Shown: one piece after another, positions 19,997-53,666 of the stretch | Position numbering within the stretch: position 1 is the first letter of the stretch | Layout of the letters: each line of letters starts with the position of its first letter | Virus record (IMG/VR): IMGVR_UViG_3300032282_002669 | Location: 1-54,827 of that record | Source: a virus | Reading direction: 5' to 3' (one strand) | Length of the DNA stretch: 54,827 nucleotides | Notes under the pieces: model-generated | What the model was told of the DNA's origin: nothing | Database searches by the model: none | Seen by the model: the letters and a program-made list of their open reading frames with translations, nothing else | Position numbers and translations under genes: made by a program

Positions 19997-21982
19997 ATGT
20001 CTACTAAATCCAGATTAATCAGCGGCAGAGTACCGGTAAGTAACTCAGCCAATGTTACATCAGAACGCTATCAATACCTAGATTTAAGTTCAGCTGAACC
20101 AAATTTAGGCACAAGTAGTGTTGGTGATGTATTAACTTACGACAGTTCATATCCTGGTGGTAGAAGATGGATTCCGCAAAGCGATATTCGTGGATCAATT
20201 GGCCAAGCGGCTTATATTCAGGCTAATACGGCTTCAGCAAATACATTGTATATTTCTGGTGTAGATATTACTCAAAACAACAGAATTTCTACACTAGAAA
20301 CTGTTAACGGAGAACAAAATACTAGCATTAGTATTATTCAAGGTGTTAATGTTACTCAAAATACCAACATCACAAATGTTGATACTAAAGCACAAGCTGC
20401 ATTTGATAAAGCAAATACAGGATTAGCTTCTTCTGGTGGTTCAATCACAGGTTCATTATCTGTTTCACAAAACTTAACTGTTACTGGTAACTTAACTGTT
20501 CTTGGTAATTCAACCACATTAACAACCAATACATTAGATATTGGTGATTCATTAATCTATCTTGCTAATAATAATTTAACTTCTGATGCAGTAGATATTG
20601 GTATTATTGGTCATTACAATGATGGCGCAAATGCTCATGCTGGTATTATCAGAGATCCAAATGCCAAAGAATGGATTTTCTTCAAAGGTTATACACCAGA
20701 AGTTCAATCAAACAATCTTATAGATATTAATCATGCATCTTTTGCTAAAGCAAATGTACAAGCCAGTTACTTCAAAGGTAATGTAGTATTCTCTGATGGT
20801 ACCACTCAAACAAGTGCGGCTACCAATATTGATTCTTATGCTCGTGCAGTAAATGATTTACAAAATACTAACGTTACGGCAGTAAATACTTATGCTGCTG
20901 GTGCTTATGGTGCAGCTAACACCAATGCAACAAATATTACCATTATTCAAGGTGTTGATGTAGGCCAAAACACTAGAATGTCTATTATTGAGGGTGTTGA
21001 TGTAACACAGAATACCAACATTACCGCAGCATTTAATCAAGCAAATTCCGCAAATGTTTTAGCTCAATCTGCATTTGATAAAGCAAATACTGCATTATCA
21101 AATACCAATTTAAATGTTTCTGGAACGCTCAGAATGTTAAATCAGGGTGGTGATGAAGGTGGTGAATTATTTTTAGATAAACCAGCTACAAGCACATCTT
21201 TAGCAGCTGGTATAACAATTGACATTTTTCAAAACAAGTTAAGATTTTTTGAAACTGGTGGTAGTGTTCGTGGCGTCTTTATTGACATGGCAAATGGTGC
21301 CTCAGCAGGAGTTGGTACAGACTTATTAAATCCCGCTTCAGCACCAGATGCGGTAGCAAGAGCTACAGCCAGTGCGGCTTTTGATAAAGCCAATTCTGCT
21401 AATGTTTTAGCACAAGCTGCATTTGATAAAGCAAATACTGCTTCATCCAATACCATTATTATTCAAGGTGTAGACACTACACAGAATACTCGTATGACCG
21501 TGATTGAAGGTGTTGACCTTACTCAAAATACTAATATTACCAATGTTGATACTAAATCACAATCAGCATTTAACAAAGCAAATTCTGCAAATGTATTAGC
21601 TCAAGCCGCATTTGATTATGCAAATACAATTCTTTCTTTAGATAATAATATTGATTCTGTTGCAAGAACAACTGCAAACAACGCCTCATCAAATACTATT
21701 GTAATTCAAGGTGTAGATACTTGGCAGAATACACAGATTACTGCCGCAAGTTCTTTAGCACAAGGTGCCTTTGCAAGAGCAAACTCTGGTGCCAGAGCAA
21801 CAACAAGTAACACAGCACCTACAGGAAATACTGTTGGTGATTTATGGTTAAGTTTAACAGATGAAACATTATACATGTATTCATATGATGGTACAAGTAA
21901 CAATTGGGTAGATATTTCAGGACCTATATTGAGGTCATCTAATATTGTTGTTCAATACACCATCACAGCTAACGTAAGTTAA
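19997..21982 (+). CDS. Tail-fibre shaft protein, unit 1 (partner of RCC1 protein at 21992)
   Basis: A 661-residue shaft. The N-terminal part (SRLISGRVPVSNSANVTSER, GDVLTYDSSYPGGRRWIPQ) is followed by repeating segments: 14-residue units (IIQGVNVTQNTNIT, IIEGVDVTQNTNIT), KANSANVLAQAAFDKANT segments, and one copy of the module IGDSLIYLANN ... IGIIGHYNDGANAHAGII ... FFKGYTPEVQSNN. It ends with GDLWLSLTDETLYMYSYDG and NNWVDISGPI ... QYTITANVS. In the paralogue at 25381 this terminal module is fused to the Calx-beta domain that here begins the next gene, so the two products very likely sit end to end. TAA-GGA serves as stop and SD for the next gene. Confidence 0.82.
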   Translation: MSTKSRLISGRVPVSNSANVTSERYQYLDLSSAEPNLGTSSVGDVLTYDSSYPGGRRWIPQSDIRGSIGQAAYIQANTASANTLYISGVDITQNNRISTLETVNGEQNTSISIIQGVNVTQNTNITNVDTKAQAAFDKANTGLASSGGSITGSLSVSQNLTVTGNLTVLGNSTTLTTNTLDIGDSLIYLANNNLTSDAVDIGIIGHYNDGANAHAGIIRDPNAKEWIFFKGYTPEVQSNNLIDINHASFAKANVQASYFKGNVVFSDGTTQTSAATNIDSYARAVNDLQNTNVTAVNTYAAGAYGAANTNATNITIIQGVDVGQNTRMSIIEGVDVTQNTNITAAFNQANSANVLAQSAFDKANTALSNTNLNVSGTLRMLNQGGDEGGELFLDKPATSTSLAAGITIDIFQNKLRFFETGGSVRGVFIDMANGASAGVGTDLLNPASAPDAVARATASAAFDKANSANVLAQAAFDKANTASSNTIIIQGVDTTQNTRMTVIEGVDLTQNTNITNVDTKSQSAFNKANSANVLAQAAFDYANTILSLDNNIDSVARTTANNASSNTIVIQGVDTWQNTQITAASSLAQGAFARANSGARATTSNTAPTGNTVGDLWLSLTDETLYMYSYDGTSNNWVDISGPILRSSNIVVQYTITANVS

Positions 21983-21991
21983 GGATTAGAA

Positions 21992-23386
21992 ATGGCAATT
22001 AACGAAGGTCAAACAATACAATACACAGTAACCACGACCAATACGGCCGATGGTACAGTATTGTATTGGAAAACTACAGGCAACACCACAAACTCCGACA
22101 TACAAGGTGGTAACACAGGTTCAGTAACGATTACAAACAATCAAGCCGTGTTTAATGTGGAGGTAATTGCTGATACCACTACAGACGGAGTTAAAACTTT
22201 AGGTCTTAGTCTTTCTACAGGATCATTAAATGGTCCTACAGTAGTATCAACATCAAGTCCAATTACAGTTACAGATACTTCACGTTCACCACAATATTCT
22301 CTGTATTTTTGGGGTAGAAATTCTCCAGTAGGCATATCAGGAACAAATGATTCTGTGGATTTACCAAGATCCAGTCCAGTACAAATTGGAACTTCATCGT
22401 GGAATTTAATTTCAGTTGGTGATTATGTTGTTGCCGGCATTCAAACCAATGGAACTTTATGGACTTGGGGAGACGATCAAACAGGATCATTAGGACGACC
22501 AGATAAAATTAATAGATCCAGTCCAACACAAGTTGGTGCCTTGAGTAATTGGTCAAGTGTAGCTTCAGCTAGATACCATTGTGTGGCCGTTAAAACTGAT
22601 GGCACTTTATGGTCATGGGGATTGAGTGGAGGCGGAAGATTAGGAAATAATAGTGGCAATTATTCAAGTAGGTCTAGTCCCACACAAGTTGGATCAGGAA
22701 CAACATGGTCAAGCGTAAAAACAACAGTCTCAGCTTCTTTTGCGTTAAAGACTGATGGTACACTATGGACTTGGGGACCAAATTCTCTAGGTCAATTAGG
22801 TTTAAATTTAGGAAACATTTATAGGTCCAGTCCAGTTCAAATAGGATCACCTAGTGGATATTCTTGGACCACCATTGGAACAGGAGCATATTCCGTTGGT
22901 GGAATAACAAGTGATGGTTCATTATTTACTTGGGGTGGCGACCTTTCAAACTATGGGGTTTTGGGAGTAAATTCATCAGTCAGTAAGTCTGCACCAACAC
23001 AAGTAAATGGTTCTTGGTCAAAAATTGATTTTTGTACTAACGATACTGGTTTTGTCGGAATTAAATCTAATGGAACTTTATGGCAAACCGGATATGGGTT
23101 TTTTATTGGTAACGGAGGCATTAATGTTTCTAGTCCTGTTCAGCTTGGATCCAATTCAGATTGGGTAAATGTTTATGCAAATAAAGGTGGAGCTTTTATT
23201 ACAAAAGCCAATAACGCAGCTTATGTTTTTGGCCAAAATAATTGGGGTGGATTAGGACAAAATAATGCCATTTATCAGTTGGCTACAAACATGGTTCAAT
23301 TGGGTACAACAACTCAATGGAGAAATTTTGCCAGCACAAAAACATCCACAAACGACCAAATCGTGTTTGGTACCACACTGGACTAA
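21992..23386 (+). CDS. Calx-beta + seven-bladed RCC1 propeller adhesin, copy 1
   Basis: A 464-residue protein. Residues about 3-95 form a Calx-beta-like domain (TIQYTVTTTNTADGTVLYW, DTTTDGVKTLGLSLSTG). Residues about 103-464 contain seven RCC1-type blades, each of the form DGTLWTWG...GQLG...SSPVQVG...W; blades 4-7 are degenerate (SDGSLFTWGG, NGTLWQTGYG, AAYVFGQNN). RCC1 propellers are protein- or ligand-binding platforms; in a fibre operon the inference is a receptor-binding head. The start has SD AAGGA overlapping the stop of the shaft gene. No signal peptide, as expected of a virion protein. The receptor is unknown. Confidence 0.85.
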   Translation: MAINEGQTIQYTVTTTNTADGTVLYWKTTGNTTNSDIQGGNTGSVTITNNQAVFNVEVIADTTTDGVKTLGLSLSTGSLNGPTVVSTSSPITVTDTSRSPQYSLYFWGRNSPVGISGTNDSVDLPRSSPVQIGTSSWNLISVGDYVVAGIQTNGTLWTWGDDQTGSLGRPDKINRSSPTQVGALSNWSSVASARYHCVAVKTDGTLWSWGLSGGGRLGNNSGNYSSRSSPTQVGSGTTWSSVKTTVSASFALKTDGTLWTWGPNSLGQLGLNLGNIYRSSPVQIGSPSGYSWTTIGTGAYSVGGITSDGSLFTWGGDLSNYGVLGVNSSVSKSAPTQVNGSWSKIDFCTNDTGFVGIKSNGTLWQTGYGFFIGNGGINVSSPVQLGSNSDWVNVYANKGGAFITKANNAAYVFGQNNWGGLGQNNAIYQLATNMVQLGTTTQWRNFASTKTSTNDQIVFGTTLD

Positions 23387-23817: not shown

Positions 23818-25347
23818 ATGGCTTTTCCACTATCACCAGCAAATAATCAAACTGCTCTAGTTAATGGCATTGTTTATCAATGGAATGCCGGACTTGGTGT
23901 TTGGAAAAGAAACGGTTCAGTTAACTCAATTGAAGTAGGACAGTTATTACTTAACTCTGCACAACAAACAACATCAAACGGATCAGGAACTTTAATTGTT
24001 TCTGGTGGTGCAGGCATAACAGGTAATGTTTATACTGGTGGAATCTTTATTACTGGTGCTGCAAACGGTATTACCTTTGCGGATGGTTCAGTACAAACTA
24101 CTGGTGCTACAGGTATAGATTCTTATGCTAGAACTACGGCTAATACAGCTTCATCTAATACTGTAGTGATTCAAGGTATAGATACAGCACAGAATACCCG
24201 TATGACTATTATTGAGGGCGTAGACACTACTCAAAATACTAATATTACCATTATTCAAGGTGTGGATGTTGGTCAAAATACTCGTATGGGTATTATTGAG
24301 GGCGTAGACACTACTCAAAATACTAATATTACCATTATTCAAGGTGTGGATGTTGGTCAAAATACTCGTATGGGTATTATTGAAGGTGTTAATACAACTC
24401 AAAACACTAATATTACAGCCGCTGATACTAAAGCACAAGCTGCTTTTAATGCCGCTAATACCAAGTTCTCATCTTCTGGTGGTACAATTACAGGTGATAC
24501 AGTAGTAACAGGAAACTTAACTGTAACTGGTACACAGTTCTATGCCAATACAGTAAACTTAACTGTTGTTGATAACATTATTACTCTAAACTCCAATGTA
24601 ACCGGCGCACCCACATTAAGTGCTGGTCTTGAAGTTAACAGAGGTTCATCTTCCAATACTAAGTTACTTTGGTCTGAAGCAAATACATCATGGGAATTTA
24701 CCAATAACGGATCATTCTATGATAAGATTGCTGGTTTAACATATGCTAATGCAGCATTTGCAGCTGCTAATACTAATGCAACCAACATTACTATACTTCA
24801 AGGTGTAGATGCAACACAGAATACCAACATTACTAATGTTGACACTAAAGCACAAGCCGCTTTCGATAAAGCAAACTCAGCCAATGTACTGGCACAGGCT
24901 GCATTTAATACTGCCAACTCTGCTGGTGCGGTAAGTATCACCGATGATACAACAAATAGTGGAACATATTATCCATTGTTATCGGTATCCGCCACAGGCA
25001 CACTCTCTACTTCAAATACATCCAGTTCTAAATTATCTTATGTACCATCAACTGGTACACTAACAACTGTAGACTTGAATACAACATCTGATATCAAGTT
25101 TAAAGAGAACATCCAAACGATTGATTCGGCATTGGAAATGATAAATAGAATAGACGGAGTTTCGTTTAACTGGAAAGAAACTGGTAAGAAATCTTATGGT
25201 GTGGTTGCTCAGCAGTTACAAGAAGTTTTACCAGAATTAGTTTCAGAAGAAGAACGTGGTTTATCTGTTTCGTACCTACCAATTATTGCAATTCTTATTG
25301 AGGCAATTAAAGAACAACAAAAACAAATAAACGATTTAAAAAAATAA
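23818..25347 (+). CDS. Tail-fibre shaft with C-terminal S74 intramolecular chaperone
   Basis: A 509-residue protein. N-terminal module MAFPLSPANNQTALVNGIVY, shared with 27138 and 29813. A long run of 14-residue TQNTNIT/IIQGVDV units (about 117-200) follows, including an exact 84-base tandem duplication, then a VNLTVVDNIITLNSN module. The C-terminus (about 424-509: SDIKFKENIQTID, INRIDGVSFNWKETGKKSYG, VVAQQLQEVLPELV, then a helical tail) is a Peptidase_S74 chaperone domain. In this family it trimerises the fibre and cleaves itself off before the conserved Ser-Asp; here S424-D425 is the expected site, releasing an 86-residue chaperone. It pairs with the RCC1 protein downstream. Confidence 0.87.
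   Translation: MAFPLSPANNQTALVNGIVYQWNAGLGVWKRNGSVNSIEVGQLLLNSAQQTTSNGSGTLIVSGGAGITGNVYTGGIFITGAANGITFADGSVQTTGATGIDSYARTTANTASSNTVVIQGIDTAQNTRMTIIEGVDTTQNTNITIIQGVDVGQNTRMGIIEGVDTTQNTNITIIQGVDVGQNTRMGIIEGVNTTQNTNITAADTKAQAAFNAANTKFSSSGGTITGDTVVTGNLTVTGTQFYANTVNLTVVDNIITLNSNVTGAPTLSAGLEVNRGSSSNTKLLWSEANTSWEFTNNGSFYDKIAGLTYANAAFAAANTNATNITILQGVDATQNTNITNVDTKAQAAFDKANSANVLAQAAFNTANSAGAVSITDDTTNSGTYYPLLSVSATGTLSTSNTSSSKLSYVPSTGTLTTVDLNTTSDIKFKENIQTIDSALEMINRIDGVSFNWKETGKKSYGVVAQQLQEVLPELVSEEERGLSVSYLPIIAILIEAIKEQQKQINDLKK
24208..24375 (+). repeat. Exact 84-bp tandem duplication in shaft gene
   Basis: Positions 24208-24291 and 24292-24375 are identical by eye over 84 bases, each coding two 14-residue shaft units (IIEGVDTTQNTNIT and IIQGVDVGQNTRMG). 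A diverged half-unit follows. Identity at synonymous sites indicates a recent duplication or slippage event that lengthens the fibre by 28 residues. Confidence 0.85.
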
Positions 25348-25380: not shown

Positions 25381-27123
25381 ATGGCAATCAAAATTAATAA
25401 TACTGTTGTTATAGACAACAGTAGAAATGCGACAATTAATGCAATCACAGCAAACACTATAACTGCCAACGGCACAGACCTTGGTACTGCTGTTGCTCAA
25501 GCCTACTTACTGGCCAATAATGCAAACCAAACAACTACATCTAATACTGCACCAACCAGTCCTAAAGTTGGTGATGCATGGTATGATACAATAACCGGTA
25601 TTACTTTTAGATACACCAACGATGGCACAAGTAATAACTGGGTAGATATTACAGGTCCACAGAATTCTGGTTACATTTATCAGTCATATGCAATTACTCC
25701 AAATACATCAACTGTTAGTGAAACTACTGGTAACACAGTAAGTTATACAGTCACAACCACCAATACTGCCGATAACACCGTATTATATTGGACCAATTCT
25801 GGTACAACTGTTGCATCAGACTTTAAAGATTCTGTAAGTAATGGTACGGTTACAATTGTAAACAATTCTGGAACATTTACAAGGTCAGTAATTGCGGATT
25901 TGGTGACAGAAGGTTCCGAAACGATTGTAATGAATCTTAGAACCGGTTCAAATACCGGTACAATCGTAGCCGTTGCAAGTTCTGTGTCCGTAGGTGATAC
26001 TTCACAGGATCCATATTACGCTATGTACTCTACAGGATATAATCAGACTGGTGAATTAGGCCTCAATGATAGAGGTGTTTATAGATCCAGTCCAACACAA
26101 ATAGGATCACAAAGCAATTGGAGAGTAATTGCATCAGGTGGAGCTAGTAGCTCAGGATTTAGTGCTGCAATTAAAACCAATGGAACTTTGTGGTTGTGGG
26201 GTCAAGGCAGTTATGGAAAATTGGGACAAGGTGATAACATTTCACGATCTTCACCCACACAAGTGGGAGCTTTAACATCTTGGTCGGATGTTGTTATTGA
26301 GCGAAATGCTCAAGCTTGCATGGCTATTAGAACTGATGGTACAATATGGACATGGGGAAATAATGCTTACACCGGAATACTTGGTCAGAATCAAGGTTCG
26401 CCGTTTTCTTTTTATGATAAAAACAGTCCAACACAAGTAGGAACAGACACAAGTTGGAGTAAAATTGGTGCAACAGCTGGCGTCTTTGCATCCATCAAAA
26501 CCAATGGCACTCTGTGGTTGTGGGGAAGTAATAGTTATGGAAAATTAGGCCTTGGTGATACAGATAATAGATCCAGTCCAACACAATTAGGATCAGGAAC
26601 AGATTGGGCCATCTTGCCAAAATCAGGTGGCGGGTCTTGGATGGGTGCTATTAAAACCAATGGTACTTTGTGGACATGGGGAGGAAATTGGCAGACTCAA
26701 ACAGGATCAAATAGATCCGGCAATTTTAATCCTGTTTTACCAACACAACAAACAGGATCAAATTGGTCTAAACTTGCAATTGGATCGGACCACGGACTTG
26801 CTATCAAAACTGACGGCACCTTATGGGGTTGGGGAAATAATTCAAGAAATCAATTAACAAATAGCGTAGCTGGCTATGGAAATATAACTCAGATAGGTAC
26901 TTCAACAACATGGGCAGAGGTTTCTACAAGCCAATATACAACTGTTGCATTAAAAACTGATGGCACGATATGGGGATGGGGAAGAAACGACTTTGGCCAA
27001 TTAGGGTTAAATGGTACTGTCGGTGGTTACTCAATAAGTTCTCCAAGACAAATTGGAAGTGCAACAAATTGGGGTGGAGTATCTGTTGGATCAATGACGT
27101 TACTAACAACAAATTCACAATAA
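25381..27123 (+). CDS. Calx-beta + RCC1 propeller adhesin, copy 2 (fused form)
   Basis: A 580-residue protein. Residues 1 to about 50 are a short adaptor (AIKINNTVVIDNSRNATINA); about 53-95 carry the module SNTAPTSPKVGDAWYDT ... SNNWVDITGP; about 105-205 a Calx-beta-like domain (NTVSYTVTTTNTADNTVLYW, VTEGSETIVMNLRTGS); about 212-580 seven RCC1 blades. It is the only copy in which the GDxWYD...NNWVDITGP module and the Calx-beta domain are in one chain; in units 1 and 3 they are split between shaft gene and head gene. Blades 5-7 are nearly the same as in the copy at 28374, even at DNA level. Probable receptor-binding head paired with the S74 shaft. Confidence 0.85.
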   Translation: MAIKINNTVVIDNSRNATINAITANTITANGTDLGTAVAQAYLLANNANQTTTSNTAPTSPKVGDAWYDTITGITFRYTNDGTSNNWVDITGPQNSGYIYQSYAITPNTSTVSETTGNTVSYTVTTTNTADNTVLYWTNSGTTVASDFKDSVSNGTVTIVNNSGTFTRSVIADLVTEGSETIVMNLRTGSNTGTIVAVASSVSVGDTSQDPYYAMYSTGYNQTGELGLNDRGVYRSSPTQIGSQSNWRVIASGGASSSGFSAAIKTNGTLWLWGQGSYGKLGQGDNISRSSPTQVGALTSWSDVVIERNAQACMAIRTDGTIWTWGNNAYTGILGQNQGSPFSFYDKNSPTQVGTDTSWSKIGATAGVFASIKTNGTLWLWGSNSYGKLGLGDTDNRSSPTQLGSGTDWAILPKSGGGSWMGAIKTNGTLWTWGGNWQTQTGSNRSGNFNPVLPTQQTGSNWSKLAIGSDHGLAIKTDGTLWGWGNNSRNQLTNSVAGYGNITQIGTSTTWAEVSTSQYTTVALKTDGTIWGWGRNDFGQLGLNGTVGGYSISSPRQIGSATNWGGVSVGSMTLLTTNSQ

Positions 27124-27137: not shown

Positions 27138-28364
27138 ATGTCTTTTCCATTATCACCAGCCAATAATCAAGTTACGCTTGAAAATGGTATATCGTATACC
27201 TATAATGCTTCAAGGAATTTTTGGTATAGAACACCCGCAACTGCGTTAGCTTCAATTACATCTAATACATTTACTGTTCTAAATTCAATCATATTTTCAG
27301 ATGGTACTACACAAACATCTGCTGCTAGTCCAAATGATTCATATGCTAGAACTACTGCTAATACTGCAACCAATAATATTACTGTTATTCAAGGTGTAGA
27401 TGTAGGTCAAAACACTAGAATGACTGTAATAGAAGGTGTAGATGTAACACAGAACACCAACATTACTATAGCAAATAATGCAGCTCAAGCTGCGTTTGCA
27501 CAAGCCAATGCAACTGCTGGTGGATTAACTACCGCCAATAGTAGAATCACGGTTGCTGAAGGTGTCGATACTACCCAGAACACTAATATTACCATAGCAA
27601 CCAATGCTGCAACAGCCGCATTTGCTCAAGCTAATGCAACTGCTGGCGGATTAACTACCGCTAATAGTAGAATCACGGTTGCTGAAGGTGTAGACACTAC
27701 TCAAAATACTAATATTACCAATGCGACTAATGCTGCAACGGCAGCTTTCACTAAAGCAAATACTGCAATCACCACATCAGGTGGTTCAATCACCGGTTCA
27801 TTAAATGTATCACAAGATTTGGCCGTTACAGGAAACTTAACTGTATTAGGAGCCACCACTTCCATTAACACAACTTCTTTTGTTGTTAGTGATTCTTTAA
27901 TCGTGATGGGTACAGGAAATTACACCTCAGATTTATTGGATATTGGATTAACGGCTCACTACAACGATGGCACTAACGCACATGCCGGTATTGTTCGTGA
28001 CGCTACAACCAAAGAATGGTATGTGTTCAAAGGTTACACACCAGAACATTCTGCAAATAACAACATTGATATTAATCATGCATCATTTGCTAAAGCAAAC
28101 GTTAACGCAAATTATTTTAAAGGTAACGTAATATTTCCAGACGGCACAGTTCAAGCTACAGCCGTAAATTTAAGAATGACTGGAAGTAGTACTCCACCAT
28201 CCACTCCAACAGTCGGTGATTTGTGGTATGATACAGATATCGATGTGTTGCTTCGTTACACATATGACGGATCATCAAACAATTGGGTCGATATTACTGG
28301 ACCAACAATTGGTAGGTCGTCATATATTCGACCAACATACTTAATATCTGCTAACGTAGCATAA
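27138..28364 (+). CDS. Tail-fibre shaft protein, unit 3
   Basis: A 408-residue shaft. N-terminal module MSFPLSPANNQVTLENGISY; shaft repeats with a 42-residue (3 x 14) unit (IANNAAQAAFAQAN, ATAGGLTTANSRIT, VAEGVDTTQNTNIT) present about 2.3 times; module FVVSDSLIVMGTGN ... IGLTAHYNDGTNAHAGIV ... YVFKGYTPEHSANN; terminal module GDLWYDTDIDVLLRYTYDG, NNWVDITGPTIG ... TYLISANVA. The last strand runs up to the stop, as in the gene at 19997, and its continuation begins the next gene. Translational coupling through TAA-GGA. Same overall plan as unit 1 but shorter. Confidence 0.82.
   Translation: MSFPLSPANNQVTLENGISYTYNASRNFWYRTPATALASITSNTFTVLNSIIFSDGTTQTSAASPNDSYARTTANTATNNITVIQGVDVGQNTRMTVIEGVDVTQNTNITIANNAAQAAFAQANATAGGLTTANSRITVAEGVDTTQNTNITIATNAATAAFAQANATAGGLTTANSRITVAEGVDTTQNTNITNATNAATAAFTKANTAITTSGGSITGSLNVSQDLAVTGNLTVLGATTSINTTSFVVSDSLIVMGTGNYTSDLLDIGLTAHYNDGTNAHAGIVRDATTKEWYVFKGYTPEHSANNNIDINHASFAKANVNANYFKGNVIFPDGTVQATAVNLRMTGSSTPPSTPTVGDLWYDTDIDVLLRYTYDGSSNNWVDITGPTIGRSSYIRPTYLISANVA
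27468..27719 (+). repeat. Two 126-bp near-identical tandem repeats in shaft gene
   Basis: 27468-27593 and 27594-27719 each code a 42-residue unit made of three 14-residue segments, with only scattered base differences; a partial third unit follows from 27720. The same unit is used in the shaft at 29813. Confidence 0.8.
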
Positions 28365-28373: not shown

Positions 28374-29786
28374 ATGCCATTAAATGAATCTAGTTCAAAC
28401 ACTTCGATACAATATACAGTAACAACGACCAGAGTAACTGATGGTACAGTATTATATTGGAAAACTACAGGTAGTATTGCTAACTCTGATATTGTAGGAG
28501 GTAATACTGGTACAATTACAATTAATAATAATCGTGCAGTATTCAATGTTACTATTATTGCAGACAACGTGACTGAAGGTAATGAAACATTAGGTATTGC
28601 AATTTCTACTGGTTCACAGAGTGGACCAACAGTAGTATCAACGGCCAATCCAATTACAGTTAATGACACATCATTAGATCCATATTACGCTATGTACGCT
28701 ACAGGATATAATGTGAATGGAGAATTAGGTCTCAATGATAGAACCAATAGGTCCAGTCCAACACAAATAGGATCAGCAACAAATTGGAGATTAATTGCAA
28801 CTGGTGGATATGGCAATAGTGGTGGTTCAGGAGTTAGTGCTGGAATTAAAACCGATGGTACTTTATGGTTATGGGGATTTGGTCAATATGGCCGATTAGG
28901 CCAAAACGATACAATTTCACGTTCTTCACCTACACAAGTAGGAGCTCTAACATCTTGGTCTGATGTTGCCATTAGTGGTAATGCAAGCCATACAATTGCT
29001 CTCAGAACCGATGGTACATTATGGTTATGGGGAAAAGGTAATTATGGACAATTAGGTCAAGGTAATACAAGTCATCAATCCAGTCCAGTAGCAGTAGCAG
29101 GAACAAATTGGAGTAAAATTGGTGTAAGTGCGGGCCTGTCTGCAGCAATTAAAACGGACGGAACATTGTGGACCTGGGGAAATAATAGTTATGGAAAATT
29201 AGGACTTGGAGATAATACTAACAGAAATAGCCCGGTACAAGTAGGAACAGGAACAGATTGGTCTTATTTGAATAAATCAGGTGGTGGTGTTGCTATGGGT
29301 GCTATCAAAACCAATGGTACTTTATGGACGTGGGGAGGAAATTGGGAAACTCAAACAGGATCAAATAGAGATACTAGCGGAAATCCTTTCTATGGAGTAA
29401 GAAGTCCTGTACAACAAACAGGATCAAATTGGCTTAATCTTTATATGGGGTATGGTCACGGACTTGCAATCAAAACTGATGGTACGTTGTGGGGTTGGGG
29501 AAATAATTCAAGAAACCAATTAACAAATAGCGTAGCTGGTTATGGAAATATAACTCAAATAGGCAATGAAACAACGTGGGCTGCTATAGGAACTAATAGA
29601 TATGAAACTATTGGATTAAAAACTAATGGCACCATATGGGGTTGGGGTAAAAATTCTAGTGGACAATTAGGACTAAGTGAAGGTGATTATCCTTACATAA
29701 GTTCTCCAAGACAAATTGGAAGTGCAACAAATTGGGGTGCAGTAGCCACTGGATCAATGACTTTACTAACCACAAATTCACAATAA
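28374..29786 (+). CDS. Calx-beta + RCC1 propeller adhesin, copy 3
   Basis: A 470-residue protein. Calx-beta-like domain about 8-100 (SIQYTVTTTRVTDGTVLYW, VTEGNETLGIAISTGS), then a seven-bladed RCC1 propeller about 103-470 (first blade YYAMYATGYNVNGELGLND, last SSPRQIGSATNWGAVATG). It begins nine bases after the shaft stop, with SD AAGGA inside TAAGGA. Close paralogue of copy 2: blades 5-7 and the C-terminus are nearly identical, while blades 2-4 diverge. Presumed receptor-binding head. Confidence 0.85.
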   Translation: MPLNESSSNTSIQYTVTTTRVTDGTVLYWKTTGSIANSDIVGGNTGTITINNNRAVFNVTIIADNVTEGNETLGIAISTGSQSGPTVVSTANPITVNDTSLDPYYAMYATGYNVNGELGLNDRTNRSSPTQIGSATNWRLIATGGYGNSGGSGVSAGIKTDGTLWLWGFGQYGRLGQNDTISRSSPTQVGALTSWSDVAISGNASHTIALRTDGTLWLWGKGNYGQLGQGNTSHQSSPVAVAGTNWSKIGVSAGLSAAIKTDGTLWTWGNNSYGKLGLGDNTNRNSPVQVGTGTDWSYLNKSGGGVAMGAIKTNGTLWTWGGNWETQTGSNRDTSGNPFYGVRSPVQQTGSNWLNLYMGYGHGLAIKTDGTLWGWGNNSRNQLTNSVAGYGNITQIGNETTWAAIGTNRYETIGLKTNGTIWGWGKNSSGQLGLSEGDYPYISSPRQIGSATNWGAVATGSMTLLTTNSQ

Positions 29787-29812: not shown

Positions 29813-31282
29813 ATGTCATTTCCGATATCACCATCAAATAACCAAATAGCATTAGTAAATGGTATTGAGTATTACTACCTTACCACTAAAGGTGCATGGT
29901 ATCGCTATGGCGATGGAAGTGCCAATGTAATTACATCTAATACATTTCAAGTATTAAGTTCAATCATATTTTCTGATGGTACTTCACAAACAACTGCAGC
30001 AAATCCTACCGATGCATATGCTAGAACTACAGCCAATACTGCAACAAGTAATATTGTAATTCTACAAGGTGTCGATACTACTCAGAACACCAACATTACA
30101 ATTGCTAATAATGCGGCTCAGGCTGCGTTTGCACAAGCTAATGCAACTGCCGGTGGTTTGACCACAGCTAACACTAACATAACAGTAATACAAGGTGTGG
30201 ATGTAGGTCAAAATACTCGTATGACAATCATTGAGGGTGTTGATACAACTCAAAACACCAATATTACTATAGCAACTAATGCTGCAACGGCAGCTTTTGC
30301 TCAAGCCAATGCTACTGCCGGTGGATTAACTACGGCAAACACCAGATTAACTGTTGTTGAAGGTGTTGATACTACTCAGAACACCAACATTACAATTGCC
30401 AACAATGCAGCTCAAGCTGCGTTTGCACAAGCCAATGCAACTGCTGGTGGATTAATAACTGCTAACGCCAGAATTACCATATCTGAAGGTGTAGATGTAA
30501 CACAGAACACCAATATTACAAACACAACTACTTTAGCACAAGCTGCTTTTGATAAAGCCAATTCTTCTTATACATTGGCCAATACTGCAAATAGTAAATC
30601 AACTACTAGTTCTACTTCATTTACATCTGTTGTAGATACATTTACAGGTAATGGAAGTCAAACACAGTTTACTCTGTCTGTTGTACCTGATACAGAGAAC
30701 AGTACATTTGTTTATTTAAATGGTGTGTATCAAAACAAATCCACATACTCGGTAGTTGGTGCCAATGTTGTATTCACCGATACAGCAACTGCAAATGATA
30801 CTATTGAAGTAACTACTGTTGCTGGTAGTGTTATGAATGTAAGTCCTGCTGGTTACTCAACAAGAATCTATCAAGGTAATGGATCAACCACAGCATTTAC
30901 AATTAGTGCAGGTCAAACTGCCAACACCGTTATGGTGTTCAACAACGGTATCTGCCAATTCCCCGTTACGGACTATACAGTAAGCGGAACTACACTAACA
31001 TATATTGTAGCACCACAGTCCGATGAAACGGTACAGATTCGGGAACTACCAATAAATACATTAGTTGCAATCACACAACCATATTTAAGAAGATATACTG
31101 CCAATGGAGTTCAAACAACATTTACAGTAACATCAGGTCAATCAGCCAACTCAATGTTTGTATATGAGAATGGTGTATGTCAAATGCCTATTAATGATTA
31201 CACAGTAAGTGGAACAACATTGACCTTTACTACAGCACCTAGTTCAGATAAAGTAATTCAAATTAGAGAAATGCCAGTTTAA
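29813..31282 (+). CDS. Tail-fibre shaft protein, unit 4, with three C-terminal beta modules
   Basis: A 489-residue protein. N-terminal module MSFPISPSNNQIALVNGIEY; central shaft of 14-residue units (about 75-245). The C-terminal half has three copies of a beta module: about 280-342 (TFTGNGSQTQFTLSVVPD ... FVYLNGVYQN), about 350-415 (YQGNGSTTAFTISAGQTANT ... VFNNGICQFPVTDYTVSG) and about 423-488 (YTANGVQTTFTVTSGQSANS ... VYENGVCQMPINDYTVSG). These resemble phage fibre modules with the GNGxxTxFTL...VxVNGV pattern. It differs from units 1 and 3 by lacking the GDLWYD end module, matching a head gene of the other architecture (TIG type) downstream. Confidence 0.82.
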   Translation: MSFPISPSNNQIALVNGIEYYYLTTKGAWYRYGDGSANVITSNTFQVLSSIIFSDGTSQTTAANPTDAYARTTANTATSNIVILQGVDTTQNTNITIANNAAQAAFAQANATAGGLTTANTNITVIQGVDVGQNTRMTIIEGVDTTQNTNITIATNAATAAFAQANATAGGLTTANTRLTVVEGVDTTQNTNITIANNAAQAAFAQANATAGGLITANARITISEGVDVTQNTNITNTTTLAQAAFDKANSSYTLANTANSKSTTSSTSFTSVVDTFTGNGSQTQFTLSVVPDTENSTFVYLNGVYQNKSTYSVVGANVVFTDTATANDTIEVTTVAGSVMNVSPAGYSTRIYQGNGSTTAFTISAGQTANTVMVFNNGICQFPVTDYTVSGTTLTYIVAPQSDETVQIRELPINTLVAITQPYLRRYTANGVQTTFTVTSGQSANSMFVYENGVCQMPINDYTVSGTTLTFTTAPSSDKVIQIREMPV

Positions 31283-31291: not shown

Positions 31292-33001
31292 ATGTCATTT
31301 ACAAAAATATCAAGTACAAATATTGCCAATGGTGCCATTACTTTTGCACAAACAGCTGCTGGTGCTTTTACATTAATACCTACAATTACTAATGTTCAGA
31401 TTGCTGATGCATCATATAATGTTCTAGATGATACGGCAGCAAATACTGGTGGTGGTTATGTTGTTATTACTGGATCAAATTTTGGATCTAATTCACAAGT
31501 AATTATTGGTACAACTAATGCTACCAGTACAACATATGTAAATTCAACCACTATTCGTGCTCAAGTACCTGCTTTATCCGCTGCAACATATTCTCTTTAT
31601 GTTGTAGATAATACTACTGGCGCTACTGCAATTAAAGTAAATGGTTTAACATACAGTTCATTTCCAGCATGGTCAACAGGATCAACATTAACCAATCAAC
31701 AATCAGGTACTTCTTTTGGAATTAATGTAAGTGCATCATCAGATTCTAATATTACATATGCAAATACAACAGCATTACCTACTGGCACTACATTAGCTGC
31801 TAATGGATATTTTTCAGGTACAGTTACGGTGGGTTCACCAACAACATACTCATTTGATGTTAAAGCCACAGACGTTGAAAATCAAGATGCAACAAGAACA
31901 TTTAGTTTAACAGTAATATTGCAAGAAATAAAATTATGGTCTTGGGGTTTAGGTAACGTTGGTCAATTAGGAATTAATACATCACCATCTTATAGATCTA
32001 GTCCGGTGCAAATAGGTGCGGGCACAAATTGGTATGGTTTAGGTTCTTCGAGCCTGAATCACTTTGCTATAAAAGATAATGGTACGTTATGGAGTTGGGG
32101 TGGCAACCAAAATGGAGCAAATGGCCTAAATGATATAGTTTATAGATCCAGTCCAACACAGGTTGGTTCATTAACAAATTGGTCAAAAATTAGTGCAGGT
32201 GATGGTGCTGTTGTAGCTATTAAAACTGACGGTACTATGTGGTCATGGGGATGGAATGCATTTGGCCAGTTAGGATTAAATAATGGTTCAGTAAATAAAT
32301 CCAGTCCAACACAAATAGGATCAGGAACAAATTGGTCTTTTGCTGAAATTTCTGGCCAAAGTGGACTGTATGGAGTTGCAATCAAAACTGACGGCACACT
32401 ATGGAGTTGGGGATTAAATAACAACGGACAATTGGGTGTAAACAATCGTACCAGCAACGAGTCCCCGGTACAAGTAGGTGCAGGCACAAATTGGAGTAAA
32501 GTTACTATAGCTATGAAAGCTACATTAGCAATTAAAACTGATGGTACATTATGGTCTTGGGGTGATGGTAGTAATGGATGTTTAGCTGATAATAATTTCA
32601 ATGCCTATAGGTCTAGTCCGGTTCAAGTTGGTGCAGGTACAACTTGGTCATTAATTTCTGCTGGAGCTCATGTATTGGCTATCAAAACTGATGGCACACT
32701 GTGGTCTTGGGGACAAAATGCTAGCGGACAGTTAGGACAAAACGATGTTAATTCTTTAGCATCACCCAGACAAATAGGTACAGATACCAGTTGGAGTAAA
32801 ATTTCTGCAGGTAGTTCAGTTTCGGGTGTAATTAAAACTAATGGTACTTTATGGATTTGGGGAGGTGGTACCAACGGACAATTAGGACTAAATGACTCTG
32901 TGGGTCGTTCAAGTCCAGTACAAGTTGGTACAGGAACAAATTGGTCACAAATAATGTCAACAAAAGGTTCTACTTCTATGTTAGCATTAACTTTAAATTA
33001 A
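31292..33001 (+). CDS. IPT/TIG + Ig-like + RCC1 propeller adhesin, copy 4
   Basis: A 569-residue protein. Residues 1-30 are a short hook (MSFTKISSTNIANGAITFAQ). About 33-118 is an IPT/TIG-like Ig fold (GGYVVITGSNFGSNSQVIIG). About 120-212 is a second Ig-like segment (FPAWSTGSTLTNQQSGTSFG, TALPTGTTLAANGYFSGTV, KATDVENQDATRTFSLTV). About 214-569 are seven RCC1 blades. Start has SD AAGGA within TAAGGA of the shaft gene. First of four tandem genes with this architecture. Presumed receptor-binding head. Confidence 0.85.
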   Translation: MSFTKISSTNIANGAITFAQTAAGAFTLIPTITNVQIADASYNVLDDTAANTGGGYVVITGSNFGSNSQVIIGTTNATSTTYVNSTTIRAQVPALSAATYSLYVVDNTTGATAIKVNGLTYSSFPAWSTGSTLTNQQSGTSFGINVSASSDSNITYANTTALPTGTTLAANGYFSGTVTVGSPTTYSFDVKATDVENQDATRTFSLTVILQEIKLWSWGLGNVGQLGINTSPSYRSSPVQIGAGTNWYGLGSSSLNHFAIKDNGTLWSWGGNQNGANGLNDIVYRSSPTQVGSLTNWSKISAGDGAVVAIKTDGTMWSWGWNAFGQLGLNNGSVNKSSPTQIGSGTNWSFAEISGQSGLYGVAIKTDGTLWSWGLNNNGQLGVNNRTSNESPVQVGAGTNWSKVTIAMKATLAIKTDGTLWSWGDGSNGCLADNNFNAYRSSPVQVGAGTTWSLISAGAHVLAIKTDGTLWSWGQNASGQLGQNDVNSLASPRQIGTDTSWSKISAGSSVSGVIKTNGTLWIWGGGTNGQLGLNDSVGRSSPVQVGTGTNWSQIMSTKGSTSMLALTLN

Positions 33002-33004: not shown

Positions 33005-33142
33005 ATGCCAACTAAATTAATTGGAGATAGCTTTGCTCCAGGATCCATTACAGTTAACCAAATTACCGTTGGTGCTTTAAATTCCAAAATATTTTCTGTA
33101 CAAGTAACAAATTCATCTTACCTAATAAATAAAACAATATGA
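33005..33142 (+). CDS. 45-aa orphan N-terminal hook, probable remnant of an RCC1 adhesin gene
   Basis: Between two adhesin genes, an ATG 3 bases after the previous stop opens a 45-codon frame: MPTKLIGDSFAPGSITVNQI ... FSVQVTNSSYLINKTI. It lines up with the first ~45 residues of the following proteins (for example NNITAGTITSTQLLPGSL ... ISICDASYNILDDT at 33139) and stops where their TIG domain would begin. Its TGA overlaps the next ATG (ATGA at 33139-33142), so translation would be coupled. It is either a decayed gene whose body was deleted or a short translated leader. Confidence 0.5.
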   Translation: MPTKLIGDSFAPGSITVNQITVGALNSKIFSVQVTNSSYLINKTI

Positions 33143-38773: not shown

Positions 38774-38804
38774 ATTGTGAATTAATTATTTGAAAGGTTT
38801 TACC

Positions 38805-40565: not shown

Positions 40566-40577
40566 TAGGAGATAGTA

Positions 40578-40997
40578 ATGCCGACAAAAACAGGATACAA
40601 TGTTCGAGTTCAAGATGGTAAAGTAACTGATGTTTGGGACACCCCAGCACCAGAAGGTCAAAGTGGTTGGACAGCAGCAGTTGAAGTTACACCAGACCTT
40701 ACACCTAACCGTGAAATTCTAACAACACATTCAATCGATATCACCAAGAATCCAATTGAGATTGTTTGGGAAAAGAGAAGTTTGTCTGTTGACGAGCGTA
40801 AAGATTCATTGATTGGTCAAGCTAACTTTGCCGTAACAATGTTAGAAAACCAATTAGAAATGGCAACTCAAATGAATAACACAGATAGAATTGCCGAATT
40901 GACAGCACAAATTGCTGAAGCAACTCCAGTCCGTGATGCTAAAGTTACAGCCGTTACTGCTGCTACTACACATGAAGAAGTTGACGCTTTGATGTAA
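40578..40997 (+). CDS. Small protein, possibly fibre-assembly-chaperone-like
   Basis: A 139-residue protein: an N-terminal beta part (GYNVRVQDGKVTDVWDTPAP), a middle NPIEIVWEKRSLSVDERKDS, and a helical C-terminal half (ANFAVTMLENQLEMATQMNN, IAELTAQIAEATPVRDAK). The middle pattern (xPIxxVWexxxxxxxERK) resembles Tfa or DUF4376-type fibre-assembly proteins, and the position among fibre genes fits, but similarity is by eye only. SD TAGGAG. Alternatively a helical partner of the enzymes on either side. Confidence 0.5.
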   Translation: MPTKTGYNVRVQDGKVTDVWDTPAPEGQSGWTAAVEVTPDLTPNREILTTHSIDITKNPIEIVWEKRSLSVDERKDSLIGQANFAVTMLENQLEMATQMNNTDRIAELTAQIAEATPVRDAKVTAVTAATTHEEVDALM

Positions 40998-49112: not shown

Positions 49113-50098
49113 TGTCCAATATAGCATACAATAGAGTTATTAGAAAATTAGTTATTGGTTTTGGTAACTTATTTAAAAATATAACTCTTGTTCGTTACAA
49201 TCCAGATTTATCGGAAGCACAAAGATTTCTTGTGCCTTTGGTCTATGCCACAAAAGAATACTATGTTCGTAGATTGGAAGACGATCCAAATTTGGATAAA
49301 AAAGTTCAAACAACTTTACCAAGAATGTCTTTTGAAATGTCTGGTTTAAATTACGACACAACTCGCAAACAAAACACCAATGTAAAATCTTTTGCAAAAA
49401 CAAGTACAGGAACAATTGCACAATACAATCCAGTTCCTTATAACTTTGATTTTAATCTTTACATCTATGTAAGAAATATTGAAGATGGCACACAAATTAT
49501 TGAACATATTCTTCCATTTTTTACACCAGATTATACAGTTAAATTAAATTTAATTCCTGAAATGGGTATAGTAAAAGAAGTGCCTGTTATTTTAAATTCT
49601 AGTTCACATGAAATTGAATATGAAGGCAATAAAGAAACCGAAACTAGAATGGTTATTTGGACACTAAACTTTACGGTTAAAGGTTTTATTTTTGGAAAAA
49701 CATCTGCAACCAGTTTAATTAAAAACTCAATTACAAACATTCTTGGTAATATTACAACAAATGATTTGGTTCAATTTGAAATGTCTAATAGTGGTATTGG
49801 AACATATCAAGAAGGTGAAATTGTCTATCAAGGATATTCAGCCAGCAATTCTCAAGCAACAGGCAAAGTGGTTTATTGGAATAACAATACATTACACCTT
49901 ACAAACATTAATGGTAATTTTGTATCTGATGTTCCTATTATTGGTGTTGTTTCAAATTCAAATTATACTTTTGTAAATTATCAAGTGTTACCACAAGCTT
50001 TAGCTAGTATTGATATTAAACCAAATCCACTTTCAGCTAATGCGACAAATAATTATACATATACTACCACAATAACAGAATTTCCGGATACACTATAA
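49112..50098 (+). CDS. gp15: Tail completion/sheath stabiliser gp15-like
   Basis: A 328-residue homologue of T4 gp15, which caps the tail tube and sheath and binds the neck. Diagnostic: FGNLFKNITLVRYNPD, VPLVYATKEYYVRRLEDDP, VQTTLPRMSFEMSGLNYDTT, YNFDFNLYIYVRNIEDGTQI, HILPFFTPDYTVKLNLIPEM. It is longer than T4 gp15 (272) because of a C-terminal beta module (about 225-295: YQEGEIVYQGYSASN, NTLHLTNINGNFVSDVPIIG). TAATG overlaps on both sides, so it is coupled to gp14 and to the fibre shaft gene that follows. Confidence 0.92.
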   Translation: MSNIAYNRVIRKLVIGFGNLFKNITLVRYNPDLSEAQRFLVPLVYATKEYYVRRLEDDPNLDKKVQTTLPRMSFEMSGLNYDTTRKQNTNVKSFAKTSTGTIAQYNPVPYNFDFNLYIYVRNIEDGTQIIEHILPFFTPDYTVKLNLIPEMGIVKEVPVILNSSSHEIEYEGNKETETRMVIWTLNFTVKGFIFGKTSATSLIKNSITNILGNITTNDLVQFEMSNSGIGTYQEGEIVYQGYSASNSQATGKVVYWNNNTLHLTNINGNFVSDVPIIGVVSNSNYTFVNYQVLPQALASIDIKPNPLSANATNNYTYTTTITEFPDTL

Positions 50099-51399
50099 TG
50101 TCTAAAATAACTATTAATATTGGTGCAACACCTAATGACGGAACAGGTGATCCATTAAGAACCGCATTTAATTCCGTTAATCAAAATTTTACAGAGTTGT
50201 ATAATTCTGTTGCAACACTTCAACCCATTGATGCAGACTTAACAGCTATTGGTGCATTGTCCGGTACTAGTGGTTTCTTAAAGAAAGTTGGAACAAACAC
50301 ATGGTCACTTGATACCAATACATATACTGATAATACAGGTACAGTTACAAGTGTTTCAGGAACAGGTACAGTTAGTGGTTTAACATTAACAGGATCAGTT
50401 ACAGGATCAGGCAGTTTAACATTGGGTGGAACACTAACATTAACAGATACGAGTATCACATCTGCTCTTGGATATACACCTTACAATTCTTCCAATCCAA
50501 ACGGATATATTACTAGTGCAAATTTAACTAGCGTGTCTGGTATAGATTCTTATGCTAGAACAACGGCTAATACCGCAACAAACAATGTTACCATTATTCA
50601 AGGTGTGGATGTTTGGCAAAATACTCAAATTACTTCCGCAAGAACTTTGGCTCAAGCTGCGTTTGATACTGCCAACAATGTTAGTGGTGGTACTGCACAA
50701 GATGGCTTTGCTAGAATTGTGGCCAATACGGCTGCGGCCAATACCATTTATACACAAGGTGTTGATGTAGGACAAAATACTCGCATGAGTATTATTGAAG
50801 GTGTTGATTCTGGCCAGAACACTAGAATGTCTATTATTGAAGGTGTAGATGTTACACAAAATAATAGAATATCTACATTAGAAACTGTTAATGGTGAACA
50901 AAACACAGCAATTAATATTATTCAAAATGTAAACACTACTCAAAATACCCGCATGAGTATTGTTGAAGGTGTTGATTTAACTCAGAACACCAACATTACC
51001 AGTGCATTGTCCAATATAACATATTTGCAAGGTGCATTAAATACAGCAAATACAAATATTGTGGCAGCAGCACAAACTATTCCACAAAATGCACAAACAT
51101 CAAACTATACATTACAGTTAACAGATGCAGGTAAACATATTTACTATACACAAGCATCCAATACAACATTGTATATTCCTAATGCTGGTCAAGTGTCTTT
51201 TAGTAATGGTACAACCATTATGATTGTTTCAAAAACAACATCAAGTGCAAACGTAACCGTATCACCAAGTACGGGCGTAACAATGTATCTTGCTGGTAAT
51301 ACAACAAGCGCTTCACGAAATGTTACAACATATGGTATGGCAACATTAATTCAAGTTGCGGCAAACACTTGGTTTATTAATGGTACAGGAGTAATATAA
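50098..51399 (+). CDS. Tail-fibre shaft protein, unit 5 (partner of double propeller)
   Basis: A 433-residue shaft. N-terminal module SKITINIGATPNDGTGDPLR, TAFNSVNQNFTELYN is widespread in fibre proteins of many phages. A Thr/Ser/Gly-rich part (VTSVSGTGTVSGLTLTGSVT) follows, then 14-residue units (IIEGVDSGQNTRMS, IIEGVDVTQNNRIS, IIQNVNTTQNTRMS), a helix and a C-terminal beta tip (NYTLQLTDAGKHIYYTQASN ... QVAANTWFINGTGVI). It lies between gp15 and gp16, where T4 has no fibre gene. TAATG coupling at both ends. Confidence 0.82.
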   Translation: MSKITINIGATPNDGTGDPLRTAFNSVNQNFTELYNSVATLQPIDADLTAIGALSGTSGFLKKVGTNTWSLDTNTYTDNTGTVTSVSGTGTVSGLTLTGSVTGSGSLTLGGTLTLTDTSITSALGYTPYNSSNPNGYITSANLTSVSGIDSYARTTANTATNNVTIIQGVDVWQNTQITSARTLAQAAFDTANNVSGGTAQDGFARIVANTAAANTIYTQGVDVGQNTRMSIIEGVDSGQNTRMSIIEGVDVTQNNRISTLETVNGEQNTAINIIQNVNTTQNTRMSIVEGVDLTQNTNITSALSNITYLQGALNTANTNIVAAAQTIPQNAQTSNYTLQLTDAGKHIYYTQASNTTLYIPNAGQVSFSNGTTIMIVSKTTSSANVTVSPSTGVTMYLAGNTTSASRNVTTYGMATLIQVAANTWFINGTGVI

Positions 51400-53666
51400 T
51401 GAGTGCCATTATGGCCATGGTGGCTAATGTTGTTAAAAAAGCCACACAATCAACTTCATCTCTTAATTATTTTTCTTTATGGACATGGGGAGGAAATTAT
51501 CACGGACAATTAGGATTAAATGATACCGATTATAGGTCCAGTCCAACACAAGTGGGTGCTGGCACTATCTGGTTAACTATGGCTAGTGGATATTATCATA
51601 CTATTGCAGCTAAATCTGATGGAACATTGTGGGCTTGGGGCAACAGTAACTGTGGCCAATTAGGATTAAATGATTCAATTAATAGATCCAGTCCAGCACA
51701 AATTGGTACTGAATTATGGAACATTAAAAGTGTTGATGTTGGGTTAAGACACACAGCTATTGTTAAAGGTGATGGTACACTATGGACTTGGGGCCTTGAC
51801 AGTATAGGCCAATTAGGATTAAATGATTCAATTAATAGATCCAGTCCAGTTCAAGTTGGTTCGTTAACTAATTGGAAATATTGTGCAGCAATGTCATTTA
51901 GTACTGTAGCAACAAAAACAGACGGCACTTTGTGGGGATGGGGATTTAATAATGCTGGTCAATTAGGAACAAACGACATAGTTTATCAATCTAGTCCGGT
52001 TCAAATAGGCACAGATACAAATTGGGATGTTCCAAAATGTTCTGTATATGGAGGTCTCACAGCTGTTAACAAAACTGATGGAACATTATGGGCTTTTGGC
52101 CAAGATAATTATGGAATATTAATTAATGCTTATTCAACCAATACTTCCAGTCCAATACAAATTGCTTCAGCCAATATTTGGTCTTCGGTTTCAATTGGAG
52201 CTCAATCGGCATTTTTTATTAAACCTAACAATACTTTATGGGCATCCGGTTTAAATGGTCAAGGTCAATTAGGACAAAATAATAGAGTGGGTGTTAATAG
52301 TCCAGTACAAATAGGTGCAGATACAAATTGGTCTACAAATATTACATCATCATCAACCATTCCAGTTGCAATCAAAACCGATGGCACTATATGGACTTGG
52401 GCAGGTGGTTTTATGGGAACAGGTTTAAATGATACCAGTTATAGATCCAGTCCAGTTCAAATTGGTACTGATACAACTTGGTCTAAAGTTTATGGAAAAG
52501 CTGCATCAGTTTTTGCACTTCAATCGAGTACAAACAATCCTACACTTCCTGAAGTAACACCTAGCGCAAGTTTTGATTTGTATACTTGGGGTTATAATTC
52601 TAACGGAGAATTAGCATTAAATGATACAATAGATAGATCAAGTCCAACTCAGGTTGGTGCAGGTAGATGGAGTCAAGTATCTGAAAAAACCGGCGTTAAA
52701 ACAGATGGCACTTTATGGGTGTGGGGAATTAATAATGATGGTCAATTAGGCCAAAATAATACTATTTCTAAATCTAGTCCTACACAAGTTGGTGCATTAA
52801 CCAATTGGTTAAAATCTCAAACAGGATATAATAGCATTTTTGCACTTAAAACAGATGGCACATTATGGGCTTGGGGTAGAAACAATTATCAAAATTTTAC
52901 AGGTTTTGCTCAAGGACATTTAGGATTAAATGATGCGGTCAGTAGATCCAGTCCAGTTCAAATTGGTACAGACAACTATTGGAGCAATTTTTCAACTCGA
53001 AGATCGGTTGCAGGTGTGTTAGCAACCAAAACCGATGGCACACTATGGGCTTGGGGAGATAATGGTCAAGGGCAATTAGGATTAAATATTTCAGGATTCA
53101 TTGCTGGTCAAGGTAATATATATAGATCTAGCCCAGTTCAAGTTGGTACGGATACAAATTGGTCAAAAATTGAAAAAGCAGTAAACAATTCATTTGCAAT
53201 CAGAACCGATGGCACATTATGGACATGGGGTCTTGCAGGCCCACAATCAGGATTAAACAGTCCGGCAATAGGAAATAAATCAAGTCCTGTACAAATTGGC
53301 ACAGACAACAATTGGAGTAGTTTGGCTTCACAAAATTATTCAGTTGCAGCCATTAAAACCGATGGTACCTTATGGACATGGGGTGAAAATCGATATGGCC
53401 AACTTGCTCATCCATCTCCCGTTGGAGAAATAAGTGCAAATATATCCAGTCCTACACAAGTTGGTGCCGGAACAAATTGGTTGAGGGTGGCATTTGGATA
53501 TACTTGTTTACTAGCCACTAAAAGAGATGGAACCTTGTGGAGTTGCGGTCGAAATCAGAACGGCCAATTAGGAACAAACGACACAGTTGATCGATCTAGT
53601 CCGGTTCAAATAGGCACAGCAAGTACTTGGAATACAACTTTTGGAACAGCAAAATTTAATAATTAA
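51399..53666 (+). CDS. Double RCC1 propeller adhesin (two tandem seven-bladed propellers)
   Basis: A 755-residue protein. After a short hydrophobic N-terminus (SAIMAMVANVVKKATQSTSS) come two complete seven-bladed RCC1 propellers, about 26-374 and about 391-755, joined by a Pro/Thr-rich linker (NNPTLPEVTPSAS, about 378-390). Blades read DGTLWAWGNSNCGQLG, DGTLWTWGLDSIGQLG and so on; the second half starts FDLYTWGYNSNGELALND. It has no Calx-beta or TIG domain, unlike the other copies. The start overlaps the shaft stop (TAATG). Presumed receptor-binding head; the longest of the set. Confidence 0.85.
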   Translation: MSAIMAMVANVVKKATQSTSSLNYFSLWTWGGNYHGQLGLNDTDYRSSPTQVGAGTIWLTMASGYYHTIAAKSDGTLWAWGNSNCGQLGLNDSINRSSPAQIGTELWNIKSVDVGLRHTAIVKGDGTLWTWGLDSIGQLGLNDSINRSSPVQVGSLTNWKYCAAMSFSTVATKTDGTLWGWGFNNAGQLGTNDIVYQSSPVQIGTDTNWDVPKCSVYGGLTAVNKTDGTLWAFGQDNYGILINAYSTNTSSPIQIASANIWSSVSIGAQSAFFIKPNNTLWASGLNGQGQLGQNNRVGVNSPVQIGADTNWSTNITSSSTIPVAIKTDGTIWTWAGGFMGTGLNDTSYRSSPVQIGTDTTWSKVYGKAASVFALQSSTNNPTLPEVTPSASFDLYTWGYNSNGELALNDTIDRSSPTQVGAGRWSQVSEKTGVKTDGTLWVWGINNDGQLGQNNTISKSSPTQVGALTNWLKSQTGYNSIFALKTDGTLWAWGRNNYQNFTGFAQGHLGLNDAVSRSSPVQIGTDNYWSNFSTRRSVAGVLATKTDGTLWAWGDNGQGQLGLNISGFIAGQGNIYRSSPVQVGTDTNWSKIEKAVNNSFAIRTDGTLWTWGLAGPQSGLNSPAIGNKSSPVQIGTDNNWSSLASQNYSVAAIKTDGTLWTWGENRYGQLAHPSPVGEISANISSPTQVGAGTNWLRVAFGYTCLLATKRDGTLWSCGRNQNGQLGTNDTVDRSSPVQIGTASTWNTTFGTAKFNN

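Follow-up and report, generated by a model that had tools for sequence, protein, structure and literature searches.

Why should a virus with a T4-like gene content encode an array of RCC1-type beta-propellers among its tail fibre genes? The question is raised by the IMG/VR virus record IMGVR_UViG_3300032282_002669, which was analysed over its full 54,827 bases (hereafter the window; other loci and contigs are cited by L numbers) and whose source is a T4-like aquatic virus infecting bacteria. Phage RCC1 proteins are widespread, carry a misleading “chromosome condensation” label and have no agreed role. The comparison presented here offers a specific one: the RCC1 genes probably code for adhesin heads, hypervariable and exchangeable, on T4-like fibres of the tail (or whiskers), a reading to which we assign a probability of roughly 0.77.

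A preliminary description of the locus had proposed eight proteins with nine complete seven-bladed propellers, along with a ninth gene reduced to a remnant, and both statements are borne out. The Pfam models RCC1 (PF00415) and RCC1_2 detect all eight proteins far above the cut-off (51 RCC1 matches in the window), and a blade hidden Markov model (HMM) derived from the window finds seven blades, no more and no fewer, in each of seven genes and 14 in the gene starting at 51399. All are encoded on the plus strand. Three combine a Calx-beta-like stalk with a seven-bladed propeller, namely 21992..23386 (stalk at residues 1-103; assigned by Pfam, blade count and stalk homology), 25381..27123, where a fibre-type N-terminal module precedes the stalk, and 28374..29786. 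Four more, arranged in tandem, carry the propeller on a stalk of TIG and He_PIG domains (31292..33001, 34837..36627, 36648..38450, and 33139..34836 with a TIG-like domain), and the gene at 51399..53666 joins two propellers in one chain that lacks a stalk domain. The remnant was detected by the blade HMM as an open reading frame at 38383-38745; its sequence proper (38440..38745, approximate limits, plus strand) comprises about two C-terminal blades and has neither a stalk nor a normal ATG start. Another two-blade RCC1 fragment, this one with an intact start, is found at L123:9894-10268, like the window remnant just upstream of an enzyme gene, and looks like a seven-blade gene that collapsed internally.

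For the fold, one protein was examined, 33139, which AlphaFold2 models from 51 aligned sequences with a mean predicted local distance difference test (pLDDT) value of 89.5, mostly above 90 in the propeller. As the preliminary description expected, the model is that of a closed seven-bladed propeller. Its Foldseek matches include HERC2 RLD2 (template modelling score, TMt, 0.91; root-mean-square deviation 1.7 Å), HERC1 RLD3 (0.90) and human RCC1 (0.81). The window proteins match PHROG family 4219 (phrog_4219).

The RCC1 genes are encoded among tail fibre genes, and each of four fibre genes directly precedes one of them. These are the plus-strand genes 19997..21982 (a fibre shaft gene upstream of 21992, recognized by coiled-coil-type fibre repeats, its sequence and a TAAGGA-type junction), 27138..28364 (a shaft gene upstream of 28374, whose C-terminus resembles the N-terminal module of 25381), 29813..31282 (DUF4183-like, upstream of 31292) and 50098..51399 (upstream of 51399). 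At three of these boundaries the junction is a re-start of translation of the TAAGGA type. Fusion of fibre and head by stop-codon readthrough was considered with regard to the identical 9-nucleotide in-frame gaps after 21982, 28364 and 31282, and was rejected because each of these gaps is a ribosome-binding junction of the TAAGGA type; the gap after 2463 is similar.

The preliminary description also placed the propellers on Ig-like or Calx-beta bases. Pfam supports TIG domains in 31292, 34837 and 36648 and He_PIG domains in 31292, 33139, 34837 and 36648. Calx-beta fares less well: the Pfam score in 28374 is 14.9 bits against a cut-off of 27 bits, and the stalks of 21992, 25381 and 28374, which share 39-46% identity with an L122 domain called Calx-beta by Pfam, are thus only indirectly supported as Calx-beta-like. 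In relatives, stalks of this kind also bear, in place of a propeller, glycine-rich phage adhesin heads (Gly_rich_2), which have a different fold from the RCC1 heads of the window. Such a head sits on a TIG/He_PIG-type stalk at L120:15397 (also at L130:1837), and on a He_PIG plus Calx-beta-like domain at L123:1-1941.

Comparison of the propellers between related phages reveals a variable distal domain on a conserved base. Between the window and L116/L126 (one contig) identity is 75-79% for orthologous stalks and 93% for the downstream enzyme, while the heads reach 48-57% (50-57% when compared with L126) and orthologous heads are no more alike than non-orthologous ones. In the propeller tree the heads cluster mostly by genome, with weak inner support, whereas the stalk tree follows gene position. 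The pair L148/L150 is 98% identical in stalk and enzyme, yet 54-56% in two heads; four-fold degenerate sites differ at 8% in the stalk, 13% in the enzyme and 63-68% in the heads. Likewise, L138/L139 are 99% identical in the enzyme and 100% in the glycosyltransferase GT25, but their three RCC1 genes are 56-59% identical in the propeller, with 64-69% of four-fold sites differing. Nucleotide identity drops at the junction of stalk and propeller and recovers where the enzyme gene starts. Because synonymous sites are near saturation beside little-changed flanks, the heads appear, on this sequence evidence, to have been replaced by the import of divergent alleles through recombination, and not through a build-up of point mutations or the action of a diversity-generating retroelement (DGR). 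Flanking homology for such swaps would come from the stalk, conserved on one side of the head, and from the downstream enzyme gene, conserved on the other.

The array had been ascribed to duplication rather than to a DGR. A DGR was rejected, since no reverse transcriptase (RVT_1) was found in the window or in 12 related records, which are themselves fragments, and duplication is visible in 25381 and 28374 (75% nucleotide identity over 1.16 kb), the most recent duplicate pair in the window. The main visible source of diversity, however, appears to be recombination between phages in which entire heads are replaced; duplication inside a genome would be a second, less important source. Blade-by-blade shuffling was rejected as well: in 231 of 672 cases the best match of a blade had the same index, where 96 would be expected. 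Blade 3 of the 25381/28374 pair is an outlier (53% identity versus 72-78%), which as a sign of shuffling is only suggestive. The proposal of a switchable system holds in so far as heads differ between genomes; no switch within a genome was found.

Variability within the propeller was assessed on 96 heads, of which 665 blades were used. The DA and BC loops, assigned to one face from the strand order of the propeller blade and not from coordinates, average 2.46 bits of entropy, compared with 1.11 bits for the AB and CD loops (permutation p 0.0027). Among four closer pairs, differences are most frequent in the DA loop (38%) and rarest in the CD loop and strand D (9%). Variability thus concentrates on loops, as had been expected, only in part, since strands B and C vary too.

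Two sets of named phages provide further parallels. The cultured Synechococcus phage S-SRM01 holds in one block (gp334-gp345) a fibre with an S74 domain, three RCC1 genes, a TPR-glycosyltransferase (TPR-GT) gene and a sulfotransferase, and in BUCT-ZZ01 a tail fibre gene is followed by a tail-assembly-chaperone-like gene, a 14-blade RCC1 gene and a TPR-GT gene. Both phages are T4-like and share with the window the set of fibre, RCC1 and TPR-GT genes; unlike the window, they lack TIG or Calx-beta stalks and possess three RCC1 genes and a single 14-blade gene, respectively. The S-SRM01 paper describes no function for its RCC1 genes. In Pseudomonas phage PollyC, RCC1 forms the end of a fibre whose N-terminus is of the T7 type (the Pfam score falls slightly short of the cut-off), and Littlefix has an RCC1 fold within a named tail fibre. 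Here the propeller likewise belongs to a tail fibre, although this is a podovirus fibre with a T7-type N-terminus, the propeller is one part of the fibre polypeptide, and identity is only 29%.

The fibre-head reading is thus favoured because of the fibre operon, the stalks, the glycine-rich head swaps and the variability of heads beside near-identical stalks and flanking genes, and also because of the fibres of PollyC and Littlefix, the fibre genes beside RCC1 in S-SRM01 and BUCT-ZZ01, the presence of phrog_4219 proteins in W70 virions (see below), the variability of loops on one face and the LamG domains of a giant RCC1 relative. Comparison supports well a putative hypervariable receptor-binding role, in line with the preliminary description. 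Mechanistically, a conserved TIG/He_PIG or Calx-beta-like stalk would join the propeller to the fibre shaft, and residues mainly on the propeller loops of one face would contact varying cell-surface targets. We infer that the proteins are present in virions, attach to neighbouring fibres and bind receptors, that a particle bears several heads, and that recombination is the route of exchange. Several points weigh against this reading. The protein 51399 has no Ig or Calx-beta base, and about 26 residues precede its first propeller; strands B and C of the blades vary as well as the loops; the evidence from virions comes from other phages only (GAP32_001, W70), which are not close relatives; the link between head and shaft is one that we infer; and rapid head exchange could serve the evasion of factors other than a change of receptor.

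Among the alternatives, the propellers might be decorations of the virion surface that bind abundant glycans of the host matrix or capsule weakly and generally, and thereby raise the encounter rate, instead of being heads for specific receptors. Ig-like stalks, the many copies and the giant relatives with LamG domains would suit this proposal; yet the replacement of whole heads on conserved stalks better fits selection for changing specificity, and the position among tail fibre genes also speaks against decoration, which we consider unlikely.

A role in ordering or condensing DNA inside the capsid has been suggested for the Rak2-like jumbo phage phAPEC6, which has eleven RCC1-like proteins (PMC7247149), and for Septuagintavirus W70, in whose virions three RCC1 proteins of phrog_4219 are present (PMC11370258). 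Many RCC1-like proteins are likewise reported for the Rak2-like jumbo phages 121Q (13) and PBEC04 (6), and GAP32_001 has been detected as a virion protein (PMC5259590). Phage RCC1 arrays as such are therefore already known. The Rak2-like phages and W70 resemble the present virus in having several RCC1 proteins per myovirus, and the window proteins match the same PHROG family 4219; they differ in that stalk domains, a partner enzyme and head exchange are not described in the published passages. More generally, neither head exchange nor the partner enzyme was found in the published accounts of phage RCC1 arrays, as far as their RCC1 passages extend. For the window proteins, DNA condensation is very improbable in view of the TIG, Ig or Calx-beta stalks, the fibre operon, the glycine-rich head swap, the PollyC fusion to a T7-type fibre N-terminus and the hypervariability of the heads; moreover, the propellers are not strongly basic (186 lysines and arginines versus 145 aspartates and glutamates in 3,235 residues). 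That the proteins act as regulators inside the infected cell, like eukaryotic RCC1 or UVR8, is scarcely credible despite their similarity in sequence and fold to UVR8, HERC and RCC1, given the fibre operon, Ig-type stalks, head exchange and the homologues reported in virions of other phages; bacteria are not known to possess Ran, and Ran exchange-factor activity, a property of RCC1 proper and not of every superfamily member, is not expected in a phage.

The RCC1 genes have a regular companion. The enzyme at 38790..40565 (plus strand) joins a sulfotransferase resembling tyrosylprotein sulfotransferases (TPST), TPR-like helices and a GT-B glycosyltransferase, as judged from Pfam, co-occurrence, a structural model and Foldseek. 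In 40 records retrieved solely by the tail sheath stabiliser, a homologue occurs in 19 of 19 records with RCC1 and in none of the 21 without (Fisher p 8e-12, which is overstated owing to relatedness among the records and the shortness of some); records of 236, 122 and 54 kb contain neither RCC1 nor the enzyme. Conversely, among 48 loci retrieved by the enzyme an RCC1 gene lies within two genes in 41 and at three genes in 3, and in the remaining 4 the enzyme is at the contig end. In several relatives the TPR-GT part alone matches and no Sulfotransfer_3 was found; it is therefore the glycosyltransferase part, often fused to a TPST-like sulfotransferase, that accompanies RCC1 consistently. The N-terminal part of the model is nearest to tyrosylprotein sulfotransferases and the rest, TPR-like helices followed by a GT-B fold, to TibC, WaaC and SPY; a split homologue gives weak TPR and Glyco_transf_9 matches.

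FlmG, another TPR and GT-B enzyme, glycosylates six paralogous flagellins (PMC7591256). The window enzyme resembles FlmG, TibC and SPY in domain order, the proposed role resembles that of FlmG in the modification of several paralogous surface proteins, and TibC and TPST rank with its closest structural neighbours; it differs from all of these in joining both domains in one chain. As the matches are of moderate quality (TMt about 0.44-0.54) and include the lipopolysaccharide heptosyltransferase WaaC (0.52), the target may be the heads, a protein as for TibC, or host lipopolysaccharide as for WaaC.

A unit of a phrog_1276-like gene, two RCC1 genes, the enzyme, w40578, an RCC1 gene and GT25 recurs in L138, L139, L147-L150 and similar loci. 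Because the other genes of these contigs do not match the window, this recurrence suggests a cassette moving between phage groups. It is possible, though doubtful, that within such a mobile cassette the dedicated phage enzyme glycosylates and sulfates the hypervariable heads before assembly; if so, propeller and decorating enzyme would let the virus tip vary at a second, chemical level. Of the leads, the link to this enzyme is the most original, and modification of the heads by their neighbour is a novel, testable reading. Natural phage pairs are available in which the heads have diverged much further than the sequence around them, the role of the RCC1 proteins can be tested in two cultured cyanophages, S-SRM01 and BUCT-ZZ01 (the latter on the laboratory host Synechococcus elongatus PCC 7942), and the accompanying glycosyl/sulfotransferase allows a direct test of whether the phage tip is modified.

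A glycan/sulfation cassette adjoins the array at 38790-44971 and is conserved in close relatives. Behind the enzyme follow a small protein (40578..40997, plus strand), conserved next to the enzyme in many relatives, GT25 (41025), a methyltransferase (41741), GT2 (42337), a UDP-galactopyranose mutase (43113) and an APS-kinase-like gene with a cytidylyltransferase-like part (44111). The order fibre, RCC1, enzyme, sugar genes, head closure, sheath stabiliser and terminase is kept in relatives, and RCC1 genes are gained or lost within it: L130 carries an RCC1 gene, absent from the window, between the kinase-like gene and w45018, and L131 has none at the place of 51399.

Relatives also encode single giant RCC1 proteins with dozens of blades, of 1774-2870 residues and in one case of 4228 residues, mostly beside the enzyme gene (L119:7197-19883, L119:1-7168 and L125:4024-12636, all on the minus strand, and L106:2229-9596). 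The 4228-residue protein contains LamG lectin-type domains. A reading of these giants as strings of closed propellers was considered: loose anchor counts (35, 35, 41 and 49) are near multiples of seven, but their spacing has no clean period of seven.

Further T4-like genes of the window are a baseplate wedge (1096), fibres (9035-31282), head closure (48228), the tail sheath stabiliser (49112), a small terminase-like gene (53683) and the large terminase (54099). By sheath stabiliser and terminase the named kin are distant, comprising cyanomyophages, Pelagibacter phage Mosig and Methylophilales phage Melnitz (terminase about 65%). The T4 late promoter motif TATAAATA is not enriched in the window (3 found, 8 expected), and a sigma-70 promoter scan gave fewer matches than chance. 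The fibre protein at 17582-19645 contains an Mtd_N domain (PF18454; N-terminal domain of the major tropism determinant), in a window where no reverse transcriptase was found. Two other fibre proteins bear recognizable modules: that at 23818..25347 (plus strand) ends in an S74 intramolecular chaperone (Peptidase_S74, Pfam PF13884), and that at 11477-13234 contains a collagen-like repeat.

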